A DNA stretch of 64,000 nucleotides. It comes from Jiangella asiatica (GTDB taxonomy: Bacteria; Actinomycetota; Actinomycetes; Jiangellales; Jiangellaceae). A model generated the notes under the pieces. The model did no database searches and was not told where the DNA came from. It saw only the letters and a program-made list of their open reading frames with translations. This document shows, one piece after another, positions 8,715 to 61,009 of this stretch (positions within the stretch are counted from its first letter, which is position 1; the number at the start of each line of letters is the position of its first letter). The position numbers and the translations under genes are program-made. The DNA is taken from the NCBI RefSeq assembly GCF_004349065.1, contig NZ_SMKZ01000026.1, positions 23,399-87,398 of the forward strand, read 5' to 3'.

Positions 8715-9305
8715 ATGCTGCTCTCCGACCGCGACATCCGGGCCGCCGTCGAGTCCAAGCGGGTCCAGCTGGACCCGTACGACCCCGAGATGGTGCAACC
8801 GTCGAGCATCGACGTGCGGCTCGACCGGTACTTCCGGGTGTTCGAGAACCACCGCTATCCGCACATCGACCCGGCGGAGGAGCAGCCCGACCTCACCCGC
8901 ATGGTCGAGCCGCATGGTGGCGAGCCGTTCGTGCTGCACCCGGGCGAGTTCGTGCTGGCCTCCACGTATGAGACGGTGACGCTGGGCGACGACGTCGCCG
9001 CACGGCTGGAGGGCAAGTCGAGCCTGGGTCGGCTGGGCCTGCTCACGCACTCGACGGCGGGCTTCATCGACCCGGGCTTCACCGGCCACGTCACGCTGGA
9101 GCTGTCCAACGTCGCGACGCTGCCCATCAAGCTGTGGCCGGGCATGAAGATCGGCCAGCTGTGCTTCTTCGCGCTCACGTCGCCGGCCGAGGAGCCCTAC
9201 GGTGCGCAGCGTCACGGCTCGCGCTATCAAGGCCAGCGCGGTCCCACGCCGAGCCGGTCCTACCTGAACTTCCACCGCACCCACGTGGAGAGTGGGCAGC
9301 CATAG
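8715..9305 (+). CDS. dcd: dCTP deaminase
   Basis: A 196-residue protein with the Dcd signature throughout: [70 protein letters not shown]. It deaminates dCTP for dTTP synthesis; mycobacterial homologues also cleave to dUMP, and whether this one does is not visible to me. Its stop (TAG at 9303-9305) abuts the palindrome in front of the Fe-S oxidoreductase gene. Confidence 0.95.
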
Positions 9306-9319
9306 TTACCCATGGGTAA
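9306..9319. promoter_or_regulatory. 14-bp perfect palindrome over a -10-like box
   Basis: TTACCCATGGGTAA is perfectly symmetric and overlaps a -10-like TAATAT (9317-9322) about 60 bases before the Fe-S oxidoreductase start. Position and symmetry suggest a repressor operator, perhaps for a TetR-type regulator. No regulator gene is adjacent. Confidence 0.5.
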
Positions 9320-9378
9320 TATGTAGGGGTGCCCGCGCGAGCGGGTAAGCCCGACTCGGCGGTAAGGAGCCGGACGCC

Positions 9379-11532
9379 ATGCAGTACGTCGCCATCGTTG
9401 TCGCGCTGGGTGTCACCGTGTTGACCCTGGTGGTGCTGACGGATGCCGCGGTGCGGATGGTCCGGGTGATCCGGCTCGGACAGCCGGCACCGGGTCGCAA
9501 GAACGACCCGGGTTCGCGCACCCGGACGTTGGTGCGTGAGTTCCTCGGACACACGAGGATGGCCAAACGCCCGGTCGTCGCCGCGGCGCACTGGTTCGTC
9601 ATGATCGGCTTCTTCGCGCTGTTCTTCACGTTGGTGACGGCGTACGGGCAGCTGTTCGACGCGTACTGGGCGCTGCCGCTGATCGGGCACTGGGCGCCGT
9701 TCGAGTGGTTCACCGAGGCGATCGCGTGGTTGACGCTGGCGGGCATCGCGACGCTGACGGTGATCCGGCAGCTGTCGCACCCGCGCCGGAGCGGGCGAAG
9801 GTCACGCTTCTTCGGGTCGGCGTTCTGGCAGGCGTATTACGTGGAGTTCACCATCGCGACGATCGCGGTGAGCATCCTGGTGTTGCGCGGGCTGGAGTAC
9901 CGGCTGTTCGGGGACATGCTGCACTTCCCGCTGACGGCCTTCATAGGGTCCTGGTTCGACGGCGTTGCCACCGACGACGTCGAACTGGCCGTGCACGTGG
10001 TGGCCGGCGTGAAGATCACCGTGTCGTGGGTGTTCTTCACCGTGCTGGCCTGGAACCTGACCATGGGGGTCGGCTGGCACCGTGCGCTGGCGTTCTTCAA
10101 CATCTACTACAAGCGCGAGGCCGACGGCGGGCCGGCGCTGGGTGCGGCCAAGCCGCTCACCGTCGGCGGCGAGCCGGTCGACTTCGAGAAGCTCGACGAC
10201 CTGGACGAGGACGCCTCGCTCGGCGTGGGCAAGGTCGAGGACTTCTCGTGGAAGGCGCTGCTGGACTTCTCCACCTGCACCGAGTGCGGGCGGTGTCAGT
10301 CGCAGTGCCCGGCGTGGCACACCGACAAGCCGCTGTCGCCGAAGCTGTTCGTCCTGAACCTGCGCGACCACGCCTACGCCAAGGCGCCGTACCTGCTGGC
10401 CGGTGACGGCGACGGCGCGGACGTGCCGGTCGAGGCGCGCGCGGAGGCCGACCGTGCCATCGTCGGCGACGCCGAGCACGGCGGTGTGATCGACCCGGAC
10501 GTGCTGTGGTCCTGCACCACCTGCGGCGCCTGTGTGGAGCAGTGCCCGGTCGACATCGAGCACGTCGACCACATCCTGGATTTGCGCCGCTACCAGACGC
10601 TGATCGAGACCGAGTTCCCGAGCGAGCTGGGCGGGTTGTTCCGCAACCTGGAGAAGGCCGGCAACCCGTGGGGCGTCAACGCCTCCAAGCGGATGGACTG
10701 GGCCAAGGACCTCCCATTCCCGGTCCAGCAGGTCGGGGTCGACGTGGAGTCCCTCGACGAGGTCGACTGGCTGTTCTGGATCGGCTGCGCCGGCGCGTTC
10801 GAGGACCGGGCGAAGAAGACGACCCAGGCGGTCGCGGAGCTGCTGCACGCCGCCGGGGTCTCCTTCGCGGTGCTCGGTGACGGTGAGACGTGCACGGGCG
10901 ACCCGGCCCGCCGGTCGGGCAACGAGTTCCTCTACCAGCAGCTGGCCGCGCAGAACATCGACGTGCTGCGCGAGACCAAGGCGGTACGGGTGGTCTCCAC
11001 CTGCGCGCACTGCTTCAACACCATCAAGAACGAGTACGCCCAGCTCGGCCTCGAGCTGGAGGTCGTGCACCACACGCAGCTGCTCAACCGGCTGGTGCGC
11101 GAGGGTCGGCTCACCCCGGTCGCCCCGGCCGACGACGCCGTGGCCGGGCGCCCGGTCACCTACCACGACCCCTGCTACCTGGGCCGGCACAACCAGGTCT
11201 ACGAGCCGCCCCGCGAGCTGGTCGGCTCGCTGCCGGGCGTGGAACTGCGCGAGATGCCGCGCAGCCGGTCCACCTCGTTCTGCTGCGGCGCCGGTGGCGC
11301 ACGCATGTGGATGGAGGAACGCATCGGCACCCGCATCAACGCCGACCGCACCGCCGAGGCCCTCGCCACCGGCGCCGACGCCATCGCCGTCGGCTGCCCG
11401 TTCTGCCGCGTCATGCTCTCCGACGGCCTCACCCAGGCCCAGTCCGAGGGCGCGGGCGAGGGCGTCGAGGTCGTCGACGTCGCCCAGCTGCTGCTCTCCG
11501 CCGTCAGACGCGGCGCCCCCGCCACCCGGTGA
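9379..11532 (+). CDS. Membrane-anchored Fe-S oxidoreductase, heterodisulfide-reductase-like
   Basis: A 717-residue fusion. The N-terminal half (about residues 1-240) is a membrane domain of the NarI/HdrE-like cytochrome b type with several histidines. A two-cluster ferredoxin domain follows, with CTECGRCQSQCP from C300 and CTTCGACVEQCP from C379. The C-terminal half has two cysteine-rich CCG domains (CTGDPARRSGN, CAHCFN and CYLGRHN, CCGAGGARM) as in HdrB/HdrD and GlpC-like proteins. Actinobacterial proteins of this build are thought to pass electrons between a flavoprotein donor such as ETF and the quinone pool; that role is inferred from family knowledge. Confidence 0.82.
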   Translation: MQYVAIVVALGVTVLTLVVLTDAAVRMVRVIRLGQPAPGRKNDPGSRTRTLVREFLGHTRMAKRPVVAAAHWFVMIGFFALFFTLVTAYGQLFDAYWALPLIGHWAPFEWFTEAIAWLTLAGIATLTVIRQLSHPRRSGRRSRFFGSAFWQAYYVEFTIATIAVSILVLRGLEYRLFGDMLHFPLTAFIGSWFDGVATDDVELAVHVVAGVKITVSWVFFTVLAWNLTMGVGWHRALAFFNIYYKREADGGPALGAAKPLTVGGEPVDFEKLDDLDEDASLGVGKVEDFSWKALLDFSTCTECGRCQSQCPAWHTDKPLSPKLFVLNLRDHAYAKAPYLLAGDGDGADVPVEARAEADRAIVGDAEHGGVIDPDVLWSCTTCGACVEQCPVDIEHVDHILDLRRYQTLIETEFPSELGGLFRNLEKAGNPWGVNASKRMDWAKDLPFPVQQVGVDVESLDEVDWLFWIGCAGAFEDRAKKTTQAVAELLHAAGVSFAVLGDGETCTGDPARRSGNEFLYQQLAAQNIDVLRETKAVRVVSTCAHCFNTIKNEYAQLGLELEVVHHTQLLNRLVREGRLTPVAPADDAVAGRPVTYHDPCYLGRHNQVYEPPRELVGSLPGVELREMPRSRSTSFCCGAGGARMWMEERIGTRINADRTAEALATGADAIAVGCPFCRVMLSDGLTQAQSEGAGEGVEVVDVAQLLLSAVRRGAPATR

Positions 11533-22601: not shown

Positions 22602-23621
22602 TCAGGCGAAGAGGATGCTCGCCGGGCTGGGGGTCTCGAGGACGGGGTCGCGGCGCTCCGGCACGCCGGTCTCGGGGTCCAGCCGGAACGTCACGAGCGC
22701 GTCTGAGAACTGGTTTGCCACGTAGAGGTAGCGCCCGGAGGGGTCGACCTCCAGGTCGCGCGGGTGCGTGCCGCCGCACGGGACCGTGGCCACCAGAGAG
22801 ACGTCGGGCCCGTCGACGGTGAGTGCGGCTACCTCGTCGGGACCGCGGTTGGCGACGTAGAGGAACCGGCCGGTGGGGTCGAGGCGGATGGCCGACGGCT
22901 GGCTCCCGCCACGGTCGGTGCCAGGGTGAGTCGGCACGTCGGCCACCACCGCCGGGGCCGTGAGGTCGATGACCGAGATGGTGGAGCTCAGCTCGTTGAC
23001 GACGTACGCATGGTCGCCGGCGAGGACGAGGTGCCGAGGGCCGGAGCCGGCGGCGACCCGGATCTCGTCGGCGAGAGCGAGCCGGCCGGTCGACTCGTCG
23101 AAGTCGTAGCGGTACACGGTGTCGGTGCCGAGGTCCGTGGCCAGGACGTGGCCGCGGACCGGGTCGGTCACGATCATGTGCGCGTGCGGGCCGTCCTGAC
23201 GAGTGCCGTTGGGGCCGCTGCCGGAGTGCTGCACTACGTGCGTCGCGTCGTCGAGGGCTCCGTCGGCGAGGATCCGGTGCACGCTGATGGAGCCGGAGCC
23301 GTAGTCGGCGGTGAGCACGAACCGGCCGCTGGGATGCACCGACAGGTGGCAGGGGCCGGAGCCGCCGGTCGGGCGCGGCACGCCGAGAGGGGTGAGGGTG
23401 TCGCCGTCGACAGCCCAGGCGCTGACCCGTCCCTCGGCCACCTCGTGCACGGTGAACAGCACCCGTCCGTCAGCGGACCGTGCCACGTACATGGGGTTGT
23501 CGACGCCCTGGGCGCCAACACCGATCGGCTTCACCCAGCCGTCGTCGACGTCGGCGACGGTGATCCCAGCCGCGCTACTGCCTCCGCCGCCCGTCGTGGC
23601 GGCCCCGATGTATGCACGCAT
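22602..23621 (-). CDS. Lactonase family protein (YbhE/Pgl-type seven-bladed propeller)
   Basis: A 339-residue protein of repeated YVAN/YV-N-blade motifs (VDNPMYVARSADGR, PCHLSVHPSGRFVLTADYGSG, PRHLVLAGDHAYVVNE, FLYVANRGPDEV, YLYVANQFSDALV), matching the lactonase/6-phosphogluconolactonase YbhE family. It may hydrolyse 6-phosphogluconolactone, but several family members have other roles. A GTG six bases upstream (23627) is an alternative start. Confidence 0.82.
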   Translation of the reverse strand: MRAYIGAATTGGGGSSAAGITVADVDDGWVKPIGVGAQGVDNPMYVARSADGRVLFTVHEVAEGRVSAWAVDGDTLTPLGVPRPTGGSGPCHLSVHPSGRFVLTADYGSGSISVHRILADGALDDATHVVQHSGSGPNGTRQDGPHAHMIVTDPVRGHVLATDLGTDTVYRYDFDESTGRLALADEIRVAAGSGPRHLVLAGDHAYVVNELSSTISVIDLTAPAVVADVPTHPGTDRGGSQPSAIRLDPTGRFLYVANRGPDEVAALTVDGPDVSLVATVPCGGTHPRDLEVDPSGRYLYVANQFSDALVTFRLDPETGVPERRDPVLETPSPASILFA

Positions 23622-23651
23622 GCGCACATCATTCCGTACCCGGCGACGGCG

Positions 23652-25019
23652 TCACAGGGTGGTCGACGGTGGCTCCAGCTGGCTAGGCAGCTCGGCGGGA
23701 CGTGACTGCACGTCAGCGTCGGAGCCACCCAGCCGGACGGTGTTGCGGCCGGAGTTCTTGGCCGCGTAGAGGGCGGTGTCGGCCGCCAGCAGCAGCTCGT
23801 CGATGGTGCCGATGCCCTCGGACGGGTAGATGGCGCCGCCCACCGACGCGGTGATCGAGGTGTGGGCTCCGACAGGGGCACCGTCGGGCGGATCGACGAC
23901 GATGGTCTGGACGCGGCGGCGGATGCGCTCGGCGACGTTGCGGAGGTTCTGGCGGGTGCCGACCTCCGGCAGCACCACGACGAACTCCTCTCCGCCCCAG
24001 CGGCCGCAGGCGTCCTGGTCGCGGATCTCGGCGATGAGCTCCTGAGCGACCGCCTTGAGCACCAGGTCGCCGTGTGGGTGGCCGAAGGTGTCGTTCAGCC
24101 TCTTGAAGTGGTCGAGGTCGACGATCAGCAAGCCGAGGGTTTCGCCGTGGTCCTGTGCCCGGGCCAGGGAGCGCTCGGCGAAGTCGTGCCACCAGCCCGC
24201 TGTGGCCAGGCCGGTCTTGGCGTCGATGCGCGACGCCTGTTGGTACTGGTTGAGCAGGATGCCGCGGTGCAGCGCCACCATGGCGACGACGATGCCGGGC
24301 AGCACGAACGGGTTGCTGACGACGACAGCCGCGGCCACGAGGCCGAGGCCGATGGCGCCGGCCTCGAGGAGCTGCTCACCGAAGTTGGCGAACATGTCGC
24401 GAGCGGTGGTGGTGGGCTTGGACAGTGCGATGGCCGCCATGACCAGACCCACGTTGATGGCCCACCGAGCCACGGCCGCACAGGCCACGACGCCGAGCTC
24501 CAGCAGGCCGTTCAGCGAGGCACCGCCCGGTGCGCCGGGATAGCCCGGCATGCCGAGCGCGAGGACTGCCACCGCTGCCTGGGTGCCGACCAGGACGGTC
24601 GCGCACGAGAACACCCAGCGGTATGGCAGCTTCTGCGCGTGCGGCTTCACCCGCGACCACGCCAGTGCGTAGGTGAAGATGACCATGGCCGAGGCGAAGA
24701 CCGGCGGCAGCACGATGACCGCCGCGAAGCTCCAGACCGACTTGGTATCGATGTACGGTGCGGCACTGGTGCGCGCGTACTCTCGGCGGCGTTCGAAGTG
24801 GCGGGTCAGCTCGATGGCGACCGTGGCGCACACTGCGAGAACCCCGAACCGCAGGGCGTCCGTCGTGGTGACGGGCATGAGGAACGTGGTGGCCGTGGTC
24901 ACGAAGGCGCCGACGGCGACGACGATCAGGACCAGCGCGATGACAGCTCTGGGCGCTGCCCAGAGCGCCCAGCCGGCGACCCAGGAACGGGATCTTCGAT
25001 ACAAGCCGTGCACTCGCAT
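23652..25019 (-). CDS. Membrane diguanylate cyclase (GGDEF)
   Basis: A 455-residue protein. About 270 N-terminal residues form six or more membrane helices without a recognised sensor family, and the C-terminal GGDEF domain (about residues 280-435) carries the intact active-site motif GGEEF at 342-346, so it should make cyclic-di-GMP. No RXXD inhibitory site is obvious just before the motif. A GTG at 25013 is spaced better from AGGTGA than the first ATG and may be the true start. It is divergent from the mini-gene array, with 185 bases between starts. Confidence 0.9.
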   Translation of the reverse strand: MRVHGLYRRSRSWVAGWALWAAPRAVIALVLIVVAVGAFVTTATTFLMPVTTTDALRFGVLAVCATVAIELTRHFERRREYARTSAAPYIDTKSVWSFAAVIVLPPVFASAMVIFTYALAWSRVKPHAQKLPYRWVFSCATVLVGTQAAVAVLALGMPGYPGAPGGASLNGLLELGVVACAAVARWAINVGLVMAAIALSKPTTTARDMFANFGEQLLEAGAIGLGLVAAAVVVSNPFVLPGIVVAMVALHRGILLNQYQQASRIDAKTGLATAGWWHDFAERSLARAQDHGETLGLLIVDLDHFKRLNDTFGHPHGDLVLKAVAQELIAEIRDQDACGRWGGEEFVVVLPEVGTRQNLRNVAERIRRRVQTIVVDPPDGAPVGAHTSITASVGGAIYPSEGIGTIDELLLAADTALYAAKNSGRNTVRLGGSDADVQSRPAELPSQLEPPSTTL

Positions 25020-25204
25020 TCACCTGCGCAAATAGCCGTACCCCGTGAGTCGTGACGCACATACTAACCGAAAACGGGCGATCCTTGCGTGGCAGGGTGC
25101 TTCCTGATGATGGGGAGAATGAAAGCGCAATCGGACCTAACTGGTGCATACGGACATCGGTTGGCCGCCGGCCGGAAGGGGAAGCGGCAGGGAGGTGTGT
25201 CGTC

Positions 25205-25228
25205 ATGCGTGACAGCAACTGGACGTGA
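25205..25228 (+). CDS. Mini-gene 1, peptide MRDSNWT
   Basis: An ATG with GGAGG at 25191-25195 (9-base gap) opens seven codons and TGA. No signal sequence is possible at this length, so the product would be a free cytosolic heptapeptide or a substrate for modification and export. Identical in peptide to unit 2. Confidence 0.65.
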   Translation: MRDSNWT

Positions 25229-25277
25229 GCGAGGAGTGGGCACGGTAAGGCTCGAGCGGTGACGGGAGGTGTGCTCG

Positions 25278-25301
25278 ATGCGCGACAGCAACTGGACGTG
25301 A
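25278..25301 (+). CDS. Mini-gene 2, peptide MRDSNWT
   Basis: Preceded by GGGAGG at 25264-25269 with an 8-base gap. The peptide matches unit 1, but codon 2 is CGC instead of CGT, a silent change. Confidence 0.65.
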   Translation: MRDSNWT

Positions 25302-25349
25302 CGGTGAGACCTGGTGGCGACGGTTCGAGCGGCGAAGGAGGTGCCGGCG

Positions 25350-25376
25350 ATGCGTGACACGAACTGGAACGGCTGA
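25350..25376 (+). CDS. Mini-gene 3, peptide MRDTNWNG
   Basis: Preceded by a near-ideal AAGGAGG (25335-25341) with an 8-base gap. Eight codons and TGA. Thr replaces Ser at position 4 and the tail is Asn-Gly. Confidence 0.68.
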   Translation: MRDTNWNG

Positions 25377-25427
25377 GACGTCAGGAGATCGTCGATGGGC
25401 ACGAGGTGAAGAGAGGGGGCGCCGGCG

Positions 25428-25454
25428 ATGCGTGACACGAACTGGAACGGCTGA
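25428..25454 (+). CDS. Mini-gene 4, peptide MRDTNWNG
   Basis: The peptide is identical to unit 3. The ribosome binding site is GAGAGGGGG (25411-25419), somewhat weaker than in units 3 and 5; GCCGGCG between it and ATG is shared with unit 3. Confidence 0.65.
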   Translation: MRDTNWNG

Positions 25455-25505
25455 GCGTGACCGGGGGCGTCCGTGACCGCGAGGAAGCAGAAGGAGGTGC
25501 CCGCG

Positions 25506-25532
25506 ATGCGCGACACCAACTGGAGCGAGTGA
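25506..25532 (+). CDS. Mini-gene 5, peptide MRDTNWSE
   Basis: Preceded by AAGGAGG (25491-25497) with an 8-base gap. Codons 2 and 4 differ silently from units 3-4 (CGC, ACC) and the tail is Ser-Glu. The stop lies 22 bases from the convergent MFS gene end, with no terminator between. Confidence 0.68.
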   Translation: MRDTNWSE

Positions 25533-25554
25533 CATTCGATCGAGGCCCGGCAAA

Positions 25555-26832
25555 TCACGGCTGGGCGCGTAGGTCATCGGCCTCGTCCGGCGGGATGGAC
25601 AGAGTGGGGGACGAGGCCGCGCGTCGCCACCTGACGGTGGCGACCGCTGCCGCCACGGTGCCGAGAGCAGCCGCGGCGGCGATGATCGCCGACGGTGCCA
25701 GGAACTGGGCCGCGATACCGGCGAGCACGATGGCCAGACCCTGCGCTGCCCGCAGCGCGGCGATGGCGACACCGACCGCCTGACCGCGCCGGTGTGCGGG
25801 TACCGACGCGACGTAGGCGGACTGGGTGATCATGTCGTGCGCCGAGAACACGCCGCTGAGCGTCCACAGGACGACCGAGACGGCCAGCCCGGGTGCCCAC
25901 CCGGACGGCAGCAGGACCGCGCTCGTCGCGATGGCGAGCGGTCCCATGAGCGCCAGCCGGCGGTCGGGCCGGAAGCGTCGCAGCAGCAGCATGCCGATGA
26001 CCGTTCCGACGGGGTTGGCGGCCAGCAGCCAGCCGACGGCGACGGTGCCGGCGTCGATCTGCCCGGCGTACGGCACGGCGAGCCCTTCGGGCACGACGTA
26101 GAAGCCCGAGCAGCAGGCGATGGCCAGCAGGGTCCGTAGCCGCGCGTCGTGGGCCACCACGCGCCAGCCGGCCCGGATGGTCTGCCACTGCCCGCCGGGC
26201 GGCACGCCATCGAGGTCGTCGGCGTCCCCAGGCAGGGACTCCCGGGGGCGGTGCGCGTTCAGCCCGTAGGCGATCAGGGCGGCCGACACCACGAACGTCA
26301 TGGCGTTGATCACCAGTGCGGTGGACGTGCCGAGCTCGGCCACCAGCGCCGCACCTGCGCCGAACCCGGCCACGAGCCCGGCCTGGTAGGTGATGGAGAT
26401 GACGCCCAGCCCGAGCGTGAGCCGGTCGCCGACCAGCATGTCGGCCAGCGCGGCCTGCCGGGCGGCCGAGAATGGAGCCGCGAGCAACTGGACCAGCGCG
26501 AGCAGAGCCACCTGTCCGGCGAGCGGGACGACCGGGACGGCCATCACCACCACTAGTGCGGCCCGCGCGAGGTCGGTGACGACCATCACATCTCGGCGCG
26601 GGTAGCGATCGGCCAGTCCGGCCAGGGTGGCACCGCCGACCAGATCGGGCAGGTAGGTCAGGGCGTACGTGAGCGCCGCGAGCCCGGCGGACTCCGTGCG
26701 ATCGAACACCAGCAGCGTGAGCGCCACCCTGGCCAGCTGGTCGCCGATCACCGAGAGCGCGTGCGCGAGCCACAGCCAGCGGAACTCCGTGGCTGCGAAG
26801 ACGTCACGATAGGTGGCCGGGGAACCAGACAT
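25555..26832 (-). CDS. MFS transporter (MFS_3/Mef-like exporter)
   Basis: A 425-residue, 12-helix major facilitator. The first helix region FRWLWLAHALSVIGDQLARVALTLLVFDRT and the loop GLADRYPRRDVMVV are typical of the MFS_3 efflux group that includes macrolide exporters. The substrate is unknown. It converges on the mini-gene array, its stop being 22 bases from the last mini-gene, so export of the peptides or a derivative is a reasonable but untested idea. The start region lies about 200 bases from the BldD-type boxes. Confidence 0.85.
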   Translation of the reverse strand: MSGSPATYRDVFAATEFRWLWLAHALSVIGDQLARVALTLLVFDRTESAGLAALTYALTYLPDLVGGATLAGLADRYPRRDVMVVTDLARAALVVVMAVPVVPLAGQVALLALVQLLAAPFSAARQAALADMLVGDRLTLGLGVISITYQAGLVAGFGAGAALVAELGTSTALVINAMTFVVSAALIAYGLNAHRPRESLPGDADDLDGVPPGGQWQTIRAGWRVVAHDARLRTLLAIACCSGFYVVPEGLAVPYAGQIDAGTVAVGWLLAANPVGTVIGMLLLRRFRPDRRLALMGPLAIATSAVLLPSGWAPGLAVSVVLWTLSGVFSAHDMITQSAYVASVPAHRRGQAVGVAIAALRAAQGLAIVLAGIAAQFLAPSAIIAAAAALGTVAAAVATVRWRRAASSPTLSIPPDEADDLRAQP

Positions 26833-27030
26833 ACAGGGAGAGTCTTACCGCTTCGTTGACGCGCGGCAAGGACGGGGTCTCCGATGCGTCACGCCGCCCA
26901 CGGCCGACAGAACTCGCAGGCTGTGCCGCTCGTGCAATTCCAAAAGCGCCGTTGAAAGGCGCCCGCTCGGGGTTGTCGGCATTACTTCTCGGGCCGCTGT
27001 TATTCGACTCGGCGGACTAGGCGCCGTTCC
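26833..27030. other. Gap without a gene upstream of the MFS start
   Basis: No convincing coding frame, RNA gene or repeat was seen between the MFS start and the first BldD-type box. The promoter of the MFS gene must be here, but I could not pick a clear one. Confidence 0.5.
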
Positions 27031-27140
27031 GTCACGCTGAGCGACGGTGTTGGTAAAACGTGACGTAGAGTGAGGTGTTGATCACTGTGTGTCACCCGCT
27101 TGACCGCTACTCTGAGTTACTTTTTGTGACGCAAAGTAGT
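27031..27140. promoter_or_regulatory. Five tandem BldD-box-like operators
   Basis: The published BldD box is nTnACnC(A/T)GnGTnAn. Matches start at 27031 (one mismatch, position 12), 27060 (one, position 7), 27081 (one, position 7), 27106 (one, position 2) and 27126 (two, positions 9 and 14). Start-to-start spacings are 29, 21, 25 and 20 bp. The fourth and fifth also face each other as an imperfect dyad around TTTTT (27107-27139). They lie immediately upstream of a promoter that leads to the ThiF/GGDEF-EAL operon. Confidence 0.7.
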
Positions 27141-27142
27141 TG

Positions 27143-27171
27143 TTGCGCGATCCCTTTCCGCTGTCTATTCT
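27143..27171 (+). promoter_or_regulatory. Sigma-70-type promoter of the ThiF/GGDEF-EAL operon
   Basis: TTGCGC (27143-27148) and TATTCT (27166-27171) are separated by 17 bases, fitting an HrdB-type promoter. The fifth BldD-type box ends 3 bases before the -35. Transcription would start near 27178, leaving a leader of about 440 bases. Confidence 0.5.
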
Positions 27172-27212
27172 CTAACCATTCGCACCGGCAATTACGTGTC
27201 TCGGCCCCAATT

Positions 27213-27405
27213 CGAAAGGATTGGATAGCCACGAGGGACGGGGACGTCGTGAGTAGTCGCGGCAACCTCGGGGTTCACCGAGGCACGTGGTGCGTATCAC
27301 GGCTTCGGCCGTGACCCTGGACCGGTACGGCCCTCCGCCCTGCACAGGCCGTGCCGTGAAAAGGGAACGTGGTGCGCGCGTCCGGGGACGTGCGCACCAC
27401 GTTCC
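27213..27405 (+). ncRNA. Hairpin-rich leader, candidate structured RNA
   Basis: Successive stems: CCAAT/ATTGG near 27215-27233; CCTCGG/CCGAGG (27266-27271 with 27278-27283); CACGGC-TTCG-GCCGTG (27298-27313), a UUCG tetraloop hairpin; GGTACGGCC against GGCCGTGCC just after; and a near-perfect 20-bp-arm palindrome from 27364 to 27405 with one mismatch. No known riboswitch was matched; the c-di-GMP (GEMM) core signatures are absent. It precedes the c-di-GMP-related operon. The remainder to 27618 shows nothing further. Confidence 0.4.
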
Positions 27406-27618
27406 AAACGGGGCGGCGACGGGTTTCCGCGGGCTGGTCTCGTCGCCGCATTGGTGGAGGCGCGGCGGGTCTGTTGGGGGGCAGGCACCCGTCGCGTTCT
27501 CCATTTCGGCGTCTTCTTCGCGCCGCGGTCGGGCATTATGGAACATCTAGAGCATGAACGGCGCATACGGTACAGAGATCACAGACCGGACGGAGCCGTG
27601 AAGCTAGGTGTTGATCTG

Positions 27619-28350
27619 ATGACGAGTATCGGCCCCCGCAGTACCGCCGCTCACCCGCGCGCAGAGACCTCCGCGCTGTACCAGTTCCGTGACGAGCCGT
27701 CCCAGACCTGGCTGCGCTTCTACACCCCCGCGCGCCGGTTCGACCTCTGGGACGAGTACGTCGCGGGCGCCAGGCGGACCTATCAGCGCTACCGGGTCGA
27801 GAGCGCACTCAAGATCCCGCCGGCCACGGCGGACTCGCCCGGCCCCTTCTACGCCGTCGCCTCGGACGACGATGGCGTGGTGCGGGGCGGCTGGTACACC
27901 AACGGCCGCCTCGACTCCGTCACGAGCGCGCATGCGCCGTCGGAGTTCGCCAGTCAGCCGTACTCGGCGGCGATGGTGGCCGACTGGATCGACGGCGTGC
28001 TCGACACCGGTGTCATGGAGATGAAGGGCGCCTGGGTCGACCCCGCCTCTGAACACAAGTCCGCGCTGGCCGACCTGCTGGCCCGCTCGTACCTGCACGC
28101 CCTGCACGTCGTCGGGGTGGCCTACGCGTTCGGGACGGCGGCCGAGCACGCCGCGCCGCGCTGGGGACAGTCCGGTGCGCGGTCGCTCGACGGCCTCGTC
28201 CTCGCGACCTACCCGGACGAGCGGTACCGCACCACGTTCCTCTGGTGGCACGTCGATGGGTCGCCGGAGCTGTGCGCGCCGGAGCAGCGGGAGCTGTACG
28301 AGGCCGAGCGCCGGCAAGCCCTCGGGCGGGACCCCGAGGCGCGCCCATGA
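27619..28350 (+). CDS. Unrecognised protein, possibly an acyltransferase (GNAT/FeeM-like)
   Basis: A 243-residue soluble protein. Short stretches (FYAVASDDDGVVRGGWYTNGR, then SALADLLARSYLHALHVVGVAYAFGTA) loosely resemble N-acyltransferase folds, but I cannot assign a family with confidence. The frame is open upstream to 27451, and ATGs or GTGs at 27538 and 27598 are alternative starts; ATG 27619 has AGGTG at 27605-27609. The stop overlaps the ThiF-fusion start (ATGA), so the two are coupled. Confidence 0.6.
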   Translation: MTSIGPRSTAAHPRAETSALYQFRDEPSQTWLRFYTPARRFDLWDEYVAGARRTYQRYRVESALKIPPATADSPGPFYAVASDDDGVVRGGWYTNGRLDSVTSAHAPSEFASQPYSAAMVADWIDGVLDTGVMEMKGAWVDPASEHKSALADLLARSYLHALHVVGVAYAFGTAAEHAAPRWGQSGARSLDGLVLATYPDERYRTTFLWWHVDGSPELCAPEQRELYEAERRQALGRDPEARP

Positions 28351-30500
28351 CGGAGGACCCTGCCCCAGAAGCAGCGTGGCGACCGGTCCACGTCGACGAT
28401 CCCGAGAAGCTGGCCGACCTGCGCCGCAATCCGGGGGTCGCTGTCATCGACACGATCGACCAGCAGCGGCGCGACCTGGCCCGGATGCTGCCGTCGCCGG
28501 TTCCTGCCCACCTCGACGAGCCCAGCCGCTGGTACCACTACCCGTGGCGGCGAGCCGTCGTGCACGTTCTCGGTCCGGGCGGCTTCCAGGCGCTGCGGTC
28601 CGACCGCAACCGCAACAAGATCACCGCCGAGGAGCAGCGACGCCTGCGCGAGCTCACGATCGGAGTGGTCGGGCTGAGCGTCGGCCACGCCATCGCACAC
28701 ACGCTGGCGCTCGAGGGCGTCTGCGGACGCATCCGGCTGGCCGACTTCGACCACATCGAGCTGTCGAACCTCAACCGCATCCCGGGCACGGTCTTCGACC
28801 TCGGCCTCAACAAGGCGGTCGTGCTCGCCCGCCGCATCGCCGAGCTCGACCCATACATCGACGTCGAGATCGAGCCGCGTGGCCTGGACCTGGACACCGC
28901 CGACGCGTTCATGACCGGCCTGGACATCGTGGTCGAGGAGTGTGACGCGTTCGACCTCAAGGTCGCCGTGCGCGACGCCGCGCGCCGGCACGGGGTGCCG
29001 CTGGTCATGGAGACCAACGAGCGCGGCCTGCTGGACATCGAACGGTACGACCTGGAGCCGGACCGGCCGATGTTCCACGGCCTGCTCGGCGATGTCGAGC
29101 CGAAGCGGTTGATCGGCCTGTCGACGCACGACAAGGTCCCCTACGTCCTGCGGGTCCTGGAACCCGACGAGCTCACCGCGGTCATGGCCGCCTCGATGAC
29201 CGAGGTCGACGAGACGCTGAGCACCTGGCCGCAGCTGGGCGGAGACGTCAGCCTCGGCGCGGCGACGGTGGCCGCCGCGGTCCGGGCGCTCGGTCTCGGC
29301 CGGGCGCTGCCGTCGGGCCGGGTGCGGGTGGATGTCGAGGCGCTGCTCGGCAAGGTCGCCGAGCCGCCCCGGCCGCCGGACCTGGTCTCCGCCGCCGCGC
29401 GCGAGGTCGCGCCGGAGCAGCCACCGGCGGGGGCCTGGGACGCCGTGGCGCACGCCGCACGGATGGCACCGTCGGGCGGCAACACCCAACCGTGGCGCTT
29501 CGCAGTCGACGAGACCGGTCTGGACATCCTGCTCGACCCGGCGCAGACCTCGACCCTCGACGTCGCGTTCCGCGGCAGCTACGTGGCCATCGGCGCGGCG
29601 CTGTTCAACGCCAGGGTCGCCGCGGCCCGGCACGGCCTCCTGGGCGTGGTCGAGATCTTTCCGGGCGGCGGGGCTCGCGCGGGCCGGCCGGACGGCGCCG
29701 ACGACGACGCACCGGCGGCGCGGCTGCGCTTCGGCGGCGATGCCCCGCAGGAGCTGGCCGGACTCTACGAGTCGATGCTCGACCGGGTGTCCAACCGACA
29801 CCTCAACCGGCCCGGAGCACTACCCGGCGACGTGGCGCCGGCGCTGGTGCGGGTGGCCCGGGCGGAGGGCGGCGACGCGGTCGTGGTCACCGACCGCGAC
29901 ACGCTCACCGAGCTGGGCGAGCTGATGGGCGAGTCGGACCGGCTGCGCTACCTCACCCCGCACCTGCACCGCGAGATGATGCGCGAGCTGCGCTGGCCCG
30001 GCACCGACGACCTGGCGTGGGGCCTGGACGTGCGGACGCTCGAGCTCGACGACTCCGACCTGGCGAAGCTGGCGGTGGCGCGGCGCGCGGACGTGATGGG
30101 CGTGCTGGCCGAGCAGGATCTGGGCCGGGCGCTAGGGGAGCCGACCCGCGACCGCGTCGGCGGGGCCGCCGGGCTGGTGGTGGTGACCGCCGACGGCACC
30201 CGGCCAGCCGACTACGTCCGTGCCGGGCAGGCCGTCGAGCGCGTCTGGATCGAGGCCGAACGGCACGGCTTGGCGGTGCAGGCGATGTCGCCGGTGTTCA
30301 TCTTCGCCGTGGACGACTCCGACTACGAGGAGCTGTCACCGCGATACGCGCCGCGTTTACGGCAGCTTCGCCGGGTATTCGCCGATCTGAGCGGAACGAC
30401 CGACCGGGCCATCGCCCTCGTGATGCGTATCGGATACGCTCCGTCGATCAGCGTCCGAAGCCGCCGCCTGCCTGCAGACCGAACCGTACGGACGCGTTGA
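28347..30500 (+). CDS. ThiF/E1-like adenylyltransferase fused to a nitroreductase-like domain (Rv1355c/MoeY family)
   Basis: A 717-residue two-domain protein. Residues about 95-330 form an E1/ThiF Rossmann domain: a glycine loop GVVGLSVGHAIAHTLA from about 107, RLADFDHIELSNLNR with the conserved Asp and Arg/Asn-binding segment, and VVEECDAFDLKVAVRDAAR. ThiF proteins activate C-terminal carboxylates as acyl-adenylates. Residues about 365-700 form a nitroreductase-like FMN domain (MAPSGGNTQPWRFAV). The order matches mycobacterial Rv1355c, annotated MoeY, whose gene also neighbours a GGDEF-EAL gene. No CxxC zinc pairs were noticed in the ThiF part. The substrate is unknown. Confidence 0.8.
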   Translation: MTEDPAPEAAWRPVHVDDPEKLADLRRNPGVAVIDTIDQQRRDLARMLPSPVPAHLDEPSRWYHYPWRRAVVHVLGPGGFQALRSDRNRNKITAEEQRRLRELTIGVVGLSVGHAIAHTLALEGVCGRIRLADFDHIELSNLNRIPGTVFDLGLNKAVVLARRIAELDPYIDVEIEPRGLDLDTADAFMTGLDIVVEECDAFDLKVAVRDAARRHGVPLVMETNERGLLDIERYDLEPDRPMFHGLLGDVEPKRLIGLSTHDKVPYVLRVLEPDELTAVMAASMTEVDETLSTWPQLGGDVSLGAATVAAAVRALGLGRALPSGRVRVDVEALLGKVAEPPRPPDLVSAAAREVAPEQPPAGAWDAVAHAARMAPSGGNTQPWRFAVDETGLDILLDPAQTSTLDVAFRGSYVAIGAALFNARVAAARHGLLGVVEIFPGGGARAGRPDGADDDAPAARLRFGGDAPQELAGLYESMLDRVSNRHLNRPGALPGDVAPALVRVARAEGGDAVVVTDRDTLTELGELMGESDRLRYLTPHLHREMMRELRWPGTDDLAWGLDVRTLELDDSDLAKLAVARRADVMGVLAEQDLGRALGEPTRDRVGGAAGLVVVTADGTRPADYVRAGQAVERVWIEAERHGLAVQAMSPVFIFAVDDSDYEELSPRYAPRLRQLRRVFADLSGTTDRAIALVMRIGYAPSISVRSRRLPADRTVRTR

Positions 30501-30519: not shown

Positions 30520-32754
30520 ATGAAGATGGACCCCGAGACCATCCAGCCCCTGCTGAAAGCGTTGGCAGAGGCCACGGACAGCATCTCCGCCGACGTGCTG
30601 GCCGTCGGGGGCGGCATGCCGCTGGTGTCCTGGGGGAGCGCGACGACGGCCGGGGTGTCGGGCAGTGCGTTGACCGAGATGCGCGAGGCGATCCGCGGCA
30701 TCACCGCCCGGGTCGTCCAGCACGGCGACGACGGCGTGGTCGAGACCGATCAGACCGTCGGCCACCAGCTGCTCGCCACCGGGCTGAGCTATCACGACTT
30801 CCACGGAGCGGTGTGCCTGGTCCGCGGCCTCGACCGTCCGTGGCGCGCCAACGACCGCACGCTGCTGGCGATGGCGGGCGCGTTGTGCGCCGCCGTCATG
30901 GAGGCCGGTGAGGTGCCCGGCCAGTACGGCCGCCTCGACGCGCTCGTCACTTATGTCGCCTCCGAGCTGATGGGCGTCTCCACCACCGACCGGGCCGAGA
31001 CCACCCACCGGGTGCTGGGCGAGCTCGGCCGCTACTTCGGCGCCGACACGTGCGTCCTGCGGCACAACGACCCGGAGAAGCGGGCCAGCATCCTCATCGA
31101 CGAGTGGCCGCGCCGGGAGCACATCCCCGACCCCGACCCGCTGGGCGAGGTGCCGTGGGACACCGACGATCCCATCTTCGCCATGATCAAGGACTTGCGC
31201 GAGCCGTTCATCCTCCGCCCCGGCGACGGCCAGCACGACTACCAGGAACGGGTCGAAGCGGGCTCGGGCGTCCCCGAGGTGTCAATGGCCACCGTCCCCC
31301 TGATCGAGGGTGACGTCACCCGTGGCGTGCTCGGTCTCATCCATTTCGGCGACCGCATCTGGACCCGTGCCGAGGTTCGTGCGCTGCGCGCCATCGCCTC
31401 GCTGTTCGTGCAGCTCGACGGGCGGGTCACGGCCGAGGAGAGCCTCCACCACCAGGCGTACCACGACGAGCTGACCGGCCTGTGGAACCGCCGGGCCTTC
31501 GTCGAGCACCTGAGCACCGTGCTGACCAATGACCCGCAGGCTCCGCTGGCGGTGCTGTTCGCGGACATGGATCGGCTCAAGACCGTCAACGACGTCCTCG
31601 GCCACGCCATCGGCGACAGCTTCATCCGGCAGGTGGCGCAGCGGCTGCGCGAGTCGGTGCGGCCGCACGACGTGGTCGCCCGGCTGGCCGGCGACGAATT
31701 CGTCATCGTGCTCCACGGCATAGGCTCGGTCGCAGCCGCCGAGCGGGCCGCCCGGCGCATCCTCGACCGGGTGGCCGAGCCGCTCGAGGTGGGCGGGCAC
31801 TCGATCAGCCGTAGCGCCAGCATCGGCCTGGTGGTCAGCGGCGACATCGCCAGCACCGCCGATGAGCTGCTGAGCAATGCCGATGTCGCTCTCCTGGAGG
31901 CGAAGGATCGGGGTGGTGACTCCGTGGTCACGTTCAACGACGAGCTGCGGTCCAAGCTGCTCAACCGAGCTGATCTCGAACTACGGCTGCGCACCGCCAT
32001 CAGCGACAACCAGATGCGGTTGTACTTCCAGCCCGAGTTCGACCTGCGCGACGGGCGGCTGACGGCGGTCGAGGCGCTGGTGCGCTGGCAGCACCCCGAG
32101 CGCGGACTGCTCGCCGCGGAGTCGTTCGTCTCCGTCGTGGAGGAGATCAACCTCGCGGCGGAGCTGGGCCGCTGGGTTCTGGAGGAGGCCTGCCGGCAGC
32201 TGTCGGTCTGGAAGAGCACATCGTCGGTGCCGCCGCCGGTCGTGCGGGTCAACATCTCCGCCGGAGAGCTGATCAGCGCGGACTTCGTCGGGTTCGTCGC
32301 CACGTTGCTGAGCAGGTACGGCCTGGCGCCGGCCGAGCTGGGCATCGAGATCACCGAGGGCACGGTGATGCGTGAGCTCGACGACGTGCAGGCCACGCTC
32401 AACGGGCTTCGCGGCCTCGGCGTCACGCTGGCCATCGACGACTTCGGCACCGGTTACAGCTCGCTGGCCCAGCTCAAGCAGCTGCCGGTCGACATCCTGA
32501 AGATCGACCGCAGTTTCGTCTCGGCGCTGGCCGAGAGCAGCGGGGATCGCGCCATCGTCGCCGCGATCGTCCGGCTGGCCGAGGCGTTCAACCTGACGAC
32601 AGTCGCGGAGGGGGTGGAGGATCCGGCCGCGGTGACGACCCTGCTGGACCTGGGTTGCTACCGGGCGCAGGGCTTCTTCATGTCGAAACCGCTGCCGGCA
32701 CAGGTGGTTCTGGAGCAGGCGCGGAATCCCGGCGTTCCGCTGCGGATGGCGTGA
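30520..32754 (+). CDS. GAF-GGDEF-EAL cyclic-di-GMP turnover protein
   Basis: A 744-residue cytoplasmic protein. A GAF-like sensor occupies about residues 145-300. The GGDEF domain follows with active-site variant AGDEF at 390-394, and the EAL domain has EALVRW at 518 and DDFGTGYSSL from 640. Both catalytic cores look intact, so it may make and degrade c-di-GMP, as does the related mycobacterial protein Rv1354c. It follows the ThiF fusion by 19 bases, the same neighbourhood as in mycobacteria. Likely part of the operon preceded by BldD-type boxes. Confidence 0.9.
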   Translation: MKMDPETIQPLLKALAEATDSISADVLAVGGGMPLVSWGSATTAGVSGSALTEMREAIRGITARVVQHGDDGVVETDQTVGHQLLATGLSYHDFHGAVCLVRGLDRPWRANDRTLLAMAGALCAAVMEAGEVPGQYGRLDALVTYVASELMGVSTTDRAETTHRVLGELGRYFGADTCVLRHNDPEKRASILIDEWPRREHIPDPDPLGEVPWDTDDPIFAMIKDLREPFILRPGDGQHDYQERVEAGSGVPEVSMATVPLIEGDVTRGVLGLIHFGDRIWTRAEVRALRAIASLFVQLDGRVTAEESLHHQAYHDELTGLWNRRAFVEHLSTVLTNDPQAPLAVLFADMDRLKTVNDVLGHAIGDSFIRQVAQRLRESVRPHDVVARLAGDEFVIVLHGIGSVAAAERAARRILDRVAEPLEVGGHSISRSASIGLVVSGDIASTADELLSNADVALLEAKDRGGDSVVTFNDELRSKLLNRADLELRLRTAISDNQMRLYFQPEFDLRDGRLTAVEALVRWQHPERGLLAAESFVSVVEEINLAAELGRWVLEEACRQLSVWKSTSSVPPPVVRVNISAGELISADFVGFVATLLSRYGLAPAELGIEITEGTVMRELDDVQATLNGLRGLGVTLAIDDFGTGYSSLAQLKQLPVDILKIDRSFVSALAESSGDRAIVAAIVRLAEAFNLTTVAEGVEDPAAVTTLLDLGCYRAQGFFMSKPLPAQVVLEQARNPGVPLRMA

Positions 32755-32867
32755 CGAGTGAGACAAACGTTGGCCTTTGCCTTGCGAAACACCTAGCATG
32801 CGGGCTGAACAGGTAGCGGACAGTCGGTGATCAATAGGCGACGATTGCCCGGTATTCTCTGGATTGT

Positions 32868-32885
32868 CCCGGGTACGTATCCGGG
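32868..32885. promoter_or_regulatory. Short dyad upstream of the BldD-like gene
   Basis: CCCGG (32868-32872) and CCGGG (32881-32885) form a small dyad about 80 bases before the regulator start. Could be operator or terminator of the preceding gene. Evidence is weak. Confidence 0.25.
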
Positions 32886-32966
32886 GCCTGCCAAGGGGGG
32901 CGCGGCGCAGGCGTGCTGGTGAGGGCGAATCAGTACGGAGGACGAGGCACCTTGGGGAGCTCGACG

Positions 32967-33464
32967 ATGAACGACGGCAGTCCGGACTCGACCGAGGAGG
33001 ACTTCGCTAAGGTCGTGGGCGCGCGGCTGCGGGCGCTGCGCAAGCGCCGGCGGCTGTCGCTGCAGGCTGTGGAGGAGAAGTCCGGTGGCCGGTTGCGCGC
33101 GGTCGTGGTCGGCTCGTACGAGCGCGGCGACCGGGTCGCATCGATCCGCCGCATCGCCGAGCTCGCGGAGTTCTACGGTGTACCGGTCGACACGCTCGTC
33201 TCCGACGGCGCACGGTCCAGGATCCCGGCGCAAGAGGGGAAGCTGGTCATCGACCTCGACGCGCTACGCAACGCGCCGCCCGAGGCCGAGCGGCTGGCCA
33301 CCTTCGTGGCCTCGATCCAGCGCCAGCGCAACGACTTCGGCAGCCCGGTTCTGACCATCCGGGCCGAGGACATCTCGCTCGCGGCACTGCTCTACGAGAT
33401 CCCGCCGGCGGAGCTGCGCGAGAAGCTCGTGACGTGGGGCGTGCTGGCCCCGCGCGGCACCTGA
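32967..33464 (+). CDS. BldD-family c-di-GMP-responsive transcription regulator
   Basis: A 165-residue protein, the size of Streptomyces BldD. The N-terminal HTH_XRE domain (about 14-75) includes [11 protein letters not shown] as in BldD. The C-terminal domain retains the c-di-GMP signature RXD-X8-RXXD as R121-N-D123 and R132-A-E-D135. In Streptomyces a c-di-GMP tetramer glues two such domains to make BldD a DNA-binding dimer. The gene follows a GGDEF-EAL gene and lies 5.8 kb from five BldD-type boxes, so it may be their reader. The context differs from the Streptomyces bldD locus, so this may be a paralogue. ATG 32967 follows GGGGAG. Confidence 0.85.
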
Positions 33465-60970: not shown

Positions 60971-60994
60971 AAACACCGTTATGAAACACCGTTA
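60971..60994. promoter_or_regulatory. Direct-repeat operator between the membrane protein and TetR genes
   Basis: AAACACCGTTA occurs at 60971-60981 and again at 60984-60994. A -10-like TAGGAT (60993-60998) follows for the TetR gene, whose GTG at 61010 would then be leaderless or nearly so. The repeat is a candidate TetR-protein binding site for both directions. Confidence 0.55.
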
Positions 60995-61009
60995 GGATAC
61001 ACTCGTCAA

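Follow-up and report, generated by a model that had tools for sequence, protein, structure and literature searches.

The window analysed here is a stretch of 64,000 nucleotides from Jiangella asiatica (contig NZ_SMKZ01000026.1, positions 23,399 to 87,398), and our subject is a tandem array of five mini-genes within it, transcribed divergently from a gene whose product is a membrane GGDEF protein. A sequence-only reading of the window had placed five units of 7–8 codons at 25191..25532, and they are found there on the forward strand, each running from ATG to TGA. Mini-genes 1 (25205..25228) and 2 (25278..25301) encode MRDSNWT, mini-genes 3 (25350..25376) and 4 (25428..25454) encode MRDTNWNG and mini-gene 5 (25506..25532) encodes MRDTNWSE, with periods of 73, 72, 78 and 78 bp. 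That reading credited every unit with a strong Shine-Dalgarno (SD) site, which holds for four of the five, where GGAGGTG occurs at normal spacing (gggaggtgt, gggaggtg, aaggaggtg and aaggaggtg for units 1, 2, 3 and 5, respectively), whereas the site of unit 4 is the weaker gaggggg (GAGGGGGC). Similarly, its description of changes at codons 2 and 4 as mostly silent applies to codon 2 (CGT/CGC), while those at codon 4 include a Ser/Thr change. When the 535-bp intergenic region was shuffled 2000 times in dinucleotide blocks, a single MRxxxW mini-open reading frame (ORF) arose in 11 cases and two in none, compared with the five observed. The exact MRD[S/T]NW DNA pattern has five matches in the 7.03-Mb genome, all in the array, and none in the reversed control.

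The gene divergent from the array (23652..25019, reverse strand) encodes a 455 amino acid protein composed of a ∼260-residue, multi-transmembrane N-terminal sensor domain followed by a GGDEF domain (PF00990, residues 265–426, 128.5 bits against a cut-off of 23.8) containing a GGEEF motif and an RxxD I-site. GGEEF is present in 44 of 44 proteins compared and RxxD in 43, and the protein is a predicted diguanylate cyclase. The sensor domain of the window protein has no Pfam match; its AF2 model appears to resemble the vitamin-binding S-components of the energy-coupling factor (ECF) type. In a structure search with the whole protein, all 50 matches listed are GGDEF-domain proteins. Conserved residues E70, R73, D91, W96, R123 and R134 lie on or beside loops assigned as cytosolic by positive-inside counting, which leaves room for peptide sensing before export or after re-uptake. 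At the other end of the array, and converging on it, is a gene for a major facilitator superfamily (MFS) transporter (25555..26832, reverse strand; Pfam MFS_1/MFS_3), a candidate exporter of the drug/siderophore-exporter type, which the NCBIfam 2A0121 and EntS models match below their cut-offs.

Related arrays are widespread in the family. A looser peptide pattern detected mini-genes in five of 22 Jiangellaceae genomes, the window genome included: eight copies of MRDNNWN in G003, two each of MRDVNWT and MRDSNWT in G005, which belongs to the same genus as the window genome, one MRDNNWT in G021, and an array of at least four units (MRDTNWVLRDTNWSW) in a Phytoactinopolyspora genome (G016), within which there is an assembly gap of 10 Ns (L027 10038-10047). 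In the four genomes other than that of the window, the mini-genes are back to back with a homologue of the GGDEF gene. Searching with the GGDEF protein extended the set to 18 of the 22 genomes, with 30 open loci and one broken copy (G020:C3:297813) that was excluded from the 30. MRxxxW mini-genes occupy the divergent upstream region at 29 of these 30 loci, in one case (G017) ∼230 bp from the GGDEF gene; the sole exception is a second GGDEF copy in G016, situated just behind the MFS gene of the array in that genome. The longest array has 13 units in a row and occurs in one genome (G002). The peptides differ by cyclase, including MRDNTWT, MRDNTWS, MRDTTWS, MRDNHWTP, MRDNKWSR, MRDAHWES and MRENCW, and a second cyclase paralogue clade is accompanied by MRGNSWD in Jiangella and MRANSWD in other genera. 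The sequence-only reading had staked its claim on the existence of relatives in which ATG, stop and reading frame are kept; many were found, retaining ATG or GTG, frame and stop, and the claim was not refuted. Two GGDEF copies are present at each of L178 and L027, and at L169 a broken second copy with internal stops (8817-9893) lies directly behind an intact one.

The mini-genes show a clear signature of selection at the level of the peptide, as judged from codon comparisons. We analysed 147 units in 38 loci, two stray MRxxxW matches having been dropped from 149. Length is 7 codons in 130 units, 8 in 11, 6 in two and 15 in four; 139 units start with ATG and eight with GTG, and the stop is TGA in 140, TAA in six and TAG in one. 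Between adjacent units, differences at codons 3, 4, 5 and 7 comprise 46 silent and nine replacement changes, seven of the nine falling at the residue after Trp, whereas ∼80% replacements would be expected by chance (P about 1e-23). Codons 2 and 6 were excluded from this comparison, as they are fixed by the search pattern. Ten of the synonymous changes, AGC/TCC exchanges at serine, cannot be made by fewer than two base substitutions. Between units, ungapped identity is 95% in the coding part, 71% in the preceding 20 bases and 48% from -40 to -20; the spacers drift, as reported previously. The residue or residues after Trp vary, being T, S, N, D, A, I, V, G, NG, SE or absent. These data give strong support to the earlier proposal that it is the peptide that is conserved.

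Among 393 genomes of the class, 59 were found to have a GGDEF homologue at 1e-45, and 18 of these 59 are Jiangellaceae. In G030, a member of another family, tandem pairs occur at five cyclase loci, with one peptide type per cyclase (MRSVQWA, MRGADWA/C, MRGNNWT, MRGVKWA and MRGVNWV), while G027 has a tandem MRHTSWS pair and, beside its second cyclase, MSSTQWG. Single mini-genes in other families encode MRDVHWG, MRDTTWI, MRGVSWI, MLRGVTW[I/T], MSKGVSWA, MSSG[V/I]QW[V/I], MARGVVWT and MASVVQWG. By one fixed rule requiring W near the end, a mini-gene is present within 600 bases upstream at 28 of 46 loci outside Jiangellaceae, or 27 of 45 if G030-137, which was located through its own array, is excluded; a 15-residue candidate in G314 fails the rule and was scored as a miss. 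In 330,494 control bases the rule gave four matches, a background of 0.007 per 600 bases. As the rule was fixed after those loci had been viewed, a cleaner test is given by 20 fresh loci recovered with a sensor-domain-only profile, which detected 93 of the 393 genomes at 1e-12. A mini-gene was found at 10 of the 20 under a slightly looser rule than the one to which that background applies, with examples being MYNGTVWV, MRGWKWS (twice), MRNIIWG and MRDTQWTKR. These 20 were drawn from 37 new sensor-profile rows, the other 17 being mostly weak rows of family f18.

The arrangement has limits to its distribution. Mini-genes are absent from the upstream regions of the GGDEF loci in all five g22 genomes, and in 356 further genomes of the phylum, some of the same class, the sensor at 1e-25 was found only in the window's own genome. 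In one f18 genus (L114, L110, L205) the mini-genes are apparently decaying, G038 having a stop where Trp would be encoded and others having lost the frame. A tandem mini-gene pattern gave 94 pair matches in the 393 genomes, compared with six in the reversed control, and 89 of the 94 adjoin these GGDEF genes. The five pair matches away from GGDEF genes (G343, G167, G331, G180 and G020:C1) look like chance, having no in-frame pair with SD sites. Taken together, these loci show a family of mini-genes in actinobacteria, mostly six to nine codons long and at most 15, that lie back to back with a membrane GGDEF gene.

Peptide classes largely track the GGDEF tree, with the exceptions that MRDNTWT occurs in Jiangella and the distant G018 and MRDTTW in Jiangella and G060. 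One peptide was used for each locus with mixed peptides in the tree and distance comparisons. Across 43 pairs, the distance between peptide cores correlates with sensor-domain distance when GGDEF distance is held constant (partial r 0.31, reached in 0 of 2000 permutations), whereas the converse correlation with GGDEF distance, sensor distance held, is 0.015 (806 of 2000), a result that supports rather than proves the association because the permutation ignores relatedness. These comparisons provide supporting evidence that divergence of the peptide may follow the sensor domain and not the catalytic domain.

The gene content surrounding the mini-genes was compared across 34 loci. Among called genes, the only clusters recurring in more than six loci are GGDEF (28 loci) and MFS (14 loci). 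As the gene caller was home-made and misses genes of lower G+C, GGDEF, MFS and ThiF genes were also placed by tblastn, and for the orientation count the positions of four MFS genes were supplied manually. At 16 of the 34 loci, which represent both paralogue clades and G030 among others, an MFS gene runs towards the array; L174, L178 and L180 hold further copies that are diverged, partial or placed differently. The convergent MFS gene noted in the sequence-only reading is accordingly a real part of the unit. That reading also pointed to a ThiF-fusion gene 2.8 kb on; the constant partner is instead the divergent membrane GGDEF gene, which it had overlooked. By tblastn, the ThiF-nitroreductase gene is present at six of the 34 loci. 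All six are copies of the Jiangella main locus, and no paralogous or distant locus has the gene; being conserved beside that locus only, it stands outside the mini-gene unit.

The intergenic region between the array and the GGDEF gene (25020..25204) likely contains both promoters. In an alignment of 12 Jiangella main loci it contains a short element, GAGAAT in the window, GACAAT in 10 loci and AACAAT in one (G010). At several loci the element falls within an inverted repeat of the form GTCCC-N-GGGAC, and it is a possible promoter or operator. A scan of 24900-25800 for sigma-70 promoters and terminators detected none. Past the mini-genes, 25 of 26 loci continue with a convergent gene and the remaining one with a gene on the same strand, 694 bp on; three further loci reach contig ends. 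There is consequently nothing downstream to attenuate in those 25 loci.

We consider it moderately probable that the mini-genes encode a leaderless peptide signal which is sensed by the membrane domain of the cyclase and converted to c-di-GMP, and signalling peptides are now the best supported of the possibilities listed in the sequence-only reading. Transcription of the array would start at a promoter of its own within the spacer, and the mini-genes are very probably translated, several units, each with its own ribosome site, presumably raising the peptide dose. Short ORF length may also favour efficient translation, as argued for the heptapeptide ORFs of microcin C (PMC6495379). The MFS protein would then probably export, or clear, the peptide, the sensor domain would probably bind it, and binding would alter GGDEF activity and hence c-di-GMP. 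In its fullest form, this would be a new class of peptide communication in which leaderless peptides of six to nine residues ending in or just after Trp, dosed in tandem and exported by a dedicated MFS protein, are read by a vitamin-carrier-like domain fused to a diguanylate cyclase, setting c-di-GMP without a kinase or transcription factor and providing at least five private channels per cell; this extended version we regard as somewhat short of an even chance. A description of such a system was not found in the open-licence literature, judged from search listings.

The nearest working analogue is the SIP/RopB group of leaderless communication peptides of Firmicutes, which are encoded by an ORF of ∼8 codons devoid of secretion or processing sequences beside the receptor gene, differ in peptide code between species and are recognised by a cytosolic RRNPPA transcription factor (PMC10518010). 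The mini-genes share with them the ultrasmall leaderless ORF, 141 of 147 units having 7–8 codons and the mini-genes lying divergent to the partner gene at 29 of 30 Jiangellaceae loci, and that partner may likewise be the receptor. They differ in having a membrane GGDEF protein as partner, often tandem arrays of up to 13, a frequent MFS gene and an actinobacterial host. With receptor class, gene layout and phylum all different, they are not members of the SIP/RopB peptides. Sensor diguanylate cyclases with membrane-embedded input domains of the MASE/LytS type are known, and the window protein resembles them in combining a multi-transmembrane input domain with a GGDEF domain carrying GGEEF and RxxD; unlike them, its input domain has no Pfam match and its gene is linked to that of a candidate ligand made by the ribosome. 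Biarylitides, pentapeptides from 18-bp genes acted upon by a P450, are similar in being minimal peptide genes overlooked by annotation, and dissimilar in that here no enzyme recurs among called genes beside the mini-genes other than GGDEF and MFS. P450 was absent among the nine window neighbours to which the Pfam scan was limited.

Microcin C, in which the heptapeptide product of mccA is exported by an MFS protein and MccB needs a C-terminal Asn on the precursor, was the analogy originally drawn. The seven-codon ORF and MFS transporter recall it, and microcin C-like clusters mostly encode 7-residue precursors (PMC6495379), so that the peptide could be the precursor of an antibiotic or other natural product, microcin C-like or another minimal ribosomally synthesized and modified peptide, with the MFS protein providing export and immunity and GGDEF regulating production only. 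The conserved unit, however, contains no MccB-type enzyme and has tandem copies and a GGDEF partner; no modifying enzyme recurs among called genes, ThiF is confined to its six loci, the residue or residues after Trp are free to vary, and different peptides accompany different cyclase paralogues, as signals do. As previously stated, none of the five window peptides ends in Asn, and there is no conserved C-terminal Asn, which is limited among the 147 units to MRDNNWN (eight units, in one species) and single units of MRDSTWN and MRDTTWN. The analogy with microcin C is therefore unsupported and an antibiotic precursor in general appears improbable. A purely intracellular peptide, acting as a reporter of translation or tryptophan status or as a tiny cyclase subunit, with the MFS protein a passenger or clearing excess, is unlikely but has more substance: there is no leader, several conserved polar residues of the sensor domain are counted near cytosolic loops and MFS is not present at every locus. 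Against this, the MFS gene has been kept next to paralogous cassettes and also in a distant family, and a plain translation reporter would not need a diversity of cognate peptides.

Two explanations that dispense with the peptide fare poorly. Very short ORFs can provoke peptidyl-tRNA drop-off, and the act of translating many of them, sequestering ribosomes or peptidyl-tRNA to tune growth, might matter rather than the product; the amino acid core is nevertheless kept and specific to the paralogue, and many relatives have a single copy, making this very unlikely. The idea that the ORFs are incidental to an RNA or DNA element, be it an attenuator, a sponge RNA or an operator array, is scarcely credible. 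Tandem repeats with SD sites could serve as binding sites, but the excess of silent over replacement changes, the AGC/TCC swaps at serine, the interchange of ATG and GTG starts and the drift of the spacers argue otherwise, as do the single-copy mini-genes elsewhere and the lack of an Rfam match at gathering level within the window; the four rows obtained from 23000-29000 at permissive settings were weak, far below their gathering scores. The attenuators listed as an alternative in the sequence-only reading are made very unlikely by the convergent gene order, since a leader-peptide attenuator requires a downstream gene on the same strand, and this candidate was rejected.

To our knowledge, the input signals of actinobacterial membrane diguanylate cyclases are largely unknown. 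If the peptide is indeed a signal, the locus would constitute a complete and directly testable c-di-GMP signalling unit of peptide, pump and sensor-cyclase in actinobacteria, with peptide genes too short for ordinary annotation in up to 13 consecutive copies, and the peptide/membrane-cyclase arrangement would represent a new kind of peptide signalling. The many peptide/sensor pairs found in nature would then provide ready material for examining how a 7-mer is read by a membrane domain. Should the signal reading prove wrong, a tightly conserved family of genes that mostly have six to nine codons, and that keep one enzyme partner across several families, is still unusual.

Other features of the window include the ThiF-nitroreductase fusion gene itself (28347-30500, forward strand), preceded by a gene for a 243 amino acid protein with no Pfam match. 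Beyond it, at 30520-33464 on the forward strand, a GAF-GGDEF-EAL gene precedes one whose product has a BldD-like C-terminal domain, a pair representing further c-di-GMP-type genes less than 8 kb from the array. A short tandem repeat, AAACACCGTTAGG, is present in 2.5 copies at 60971-61002.
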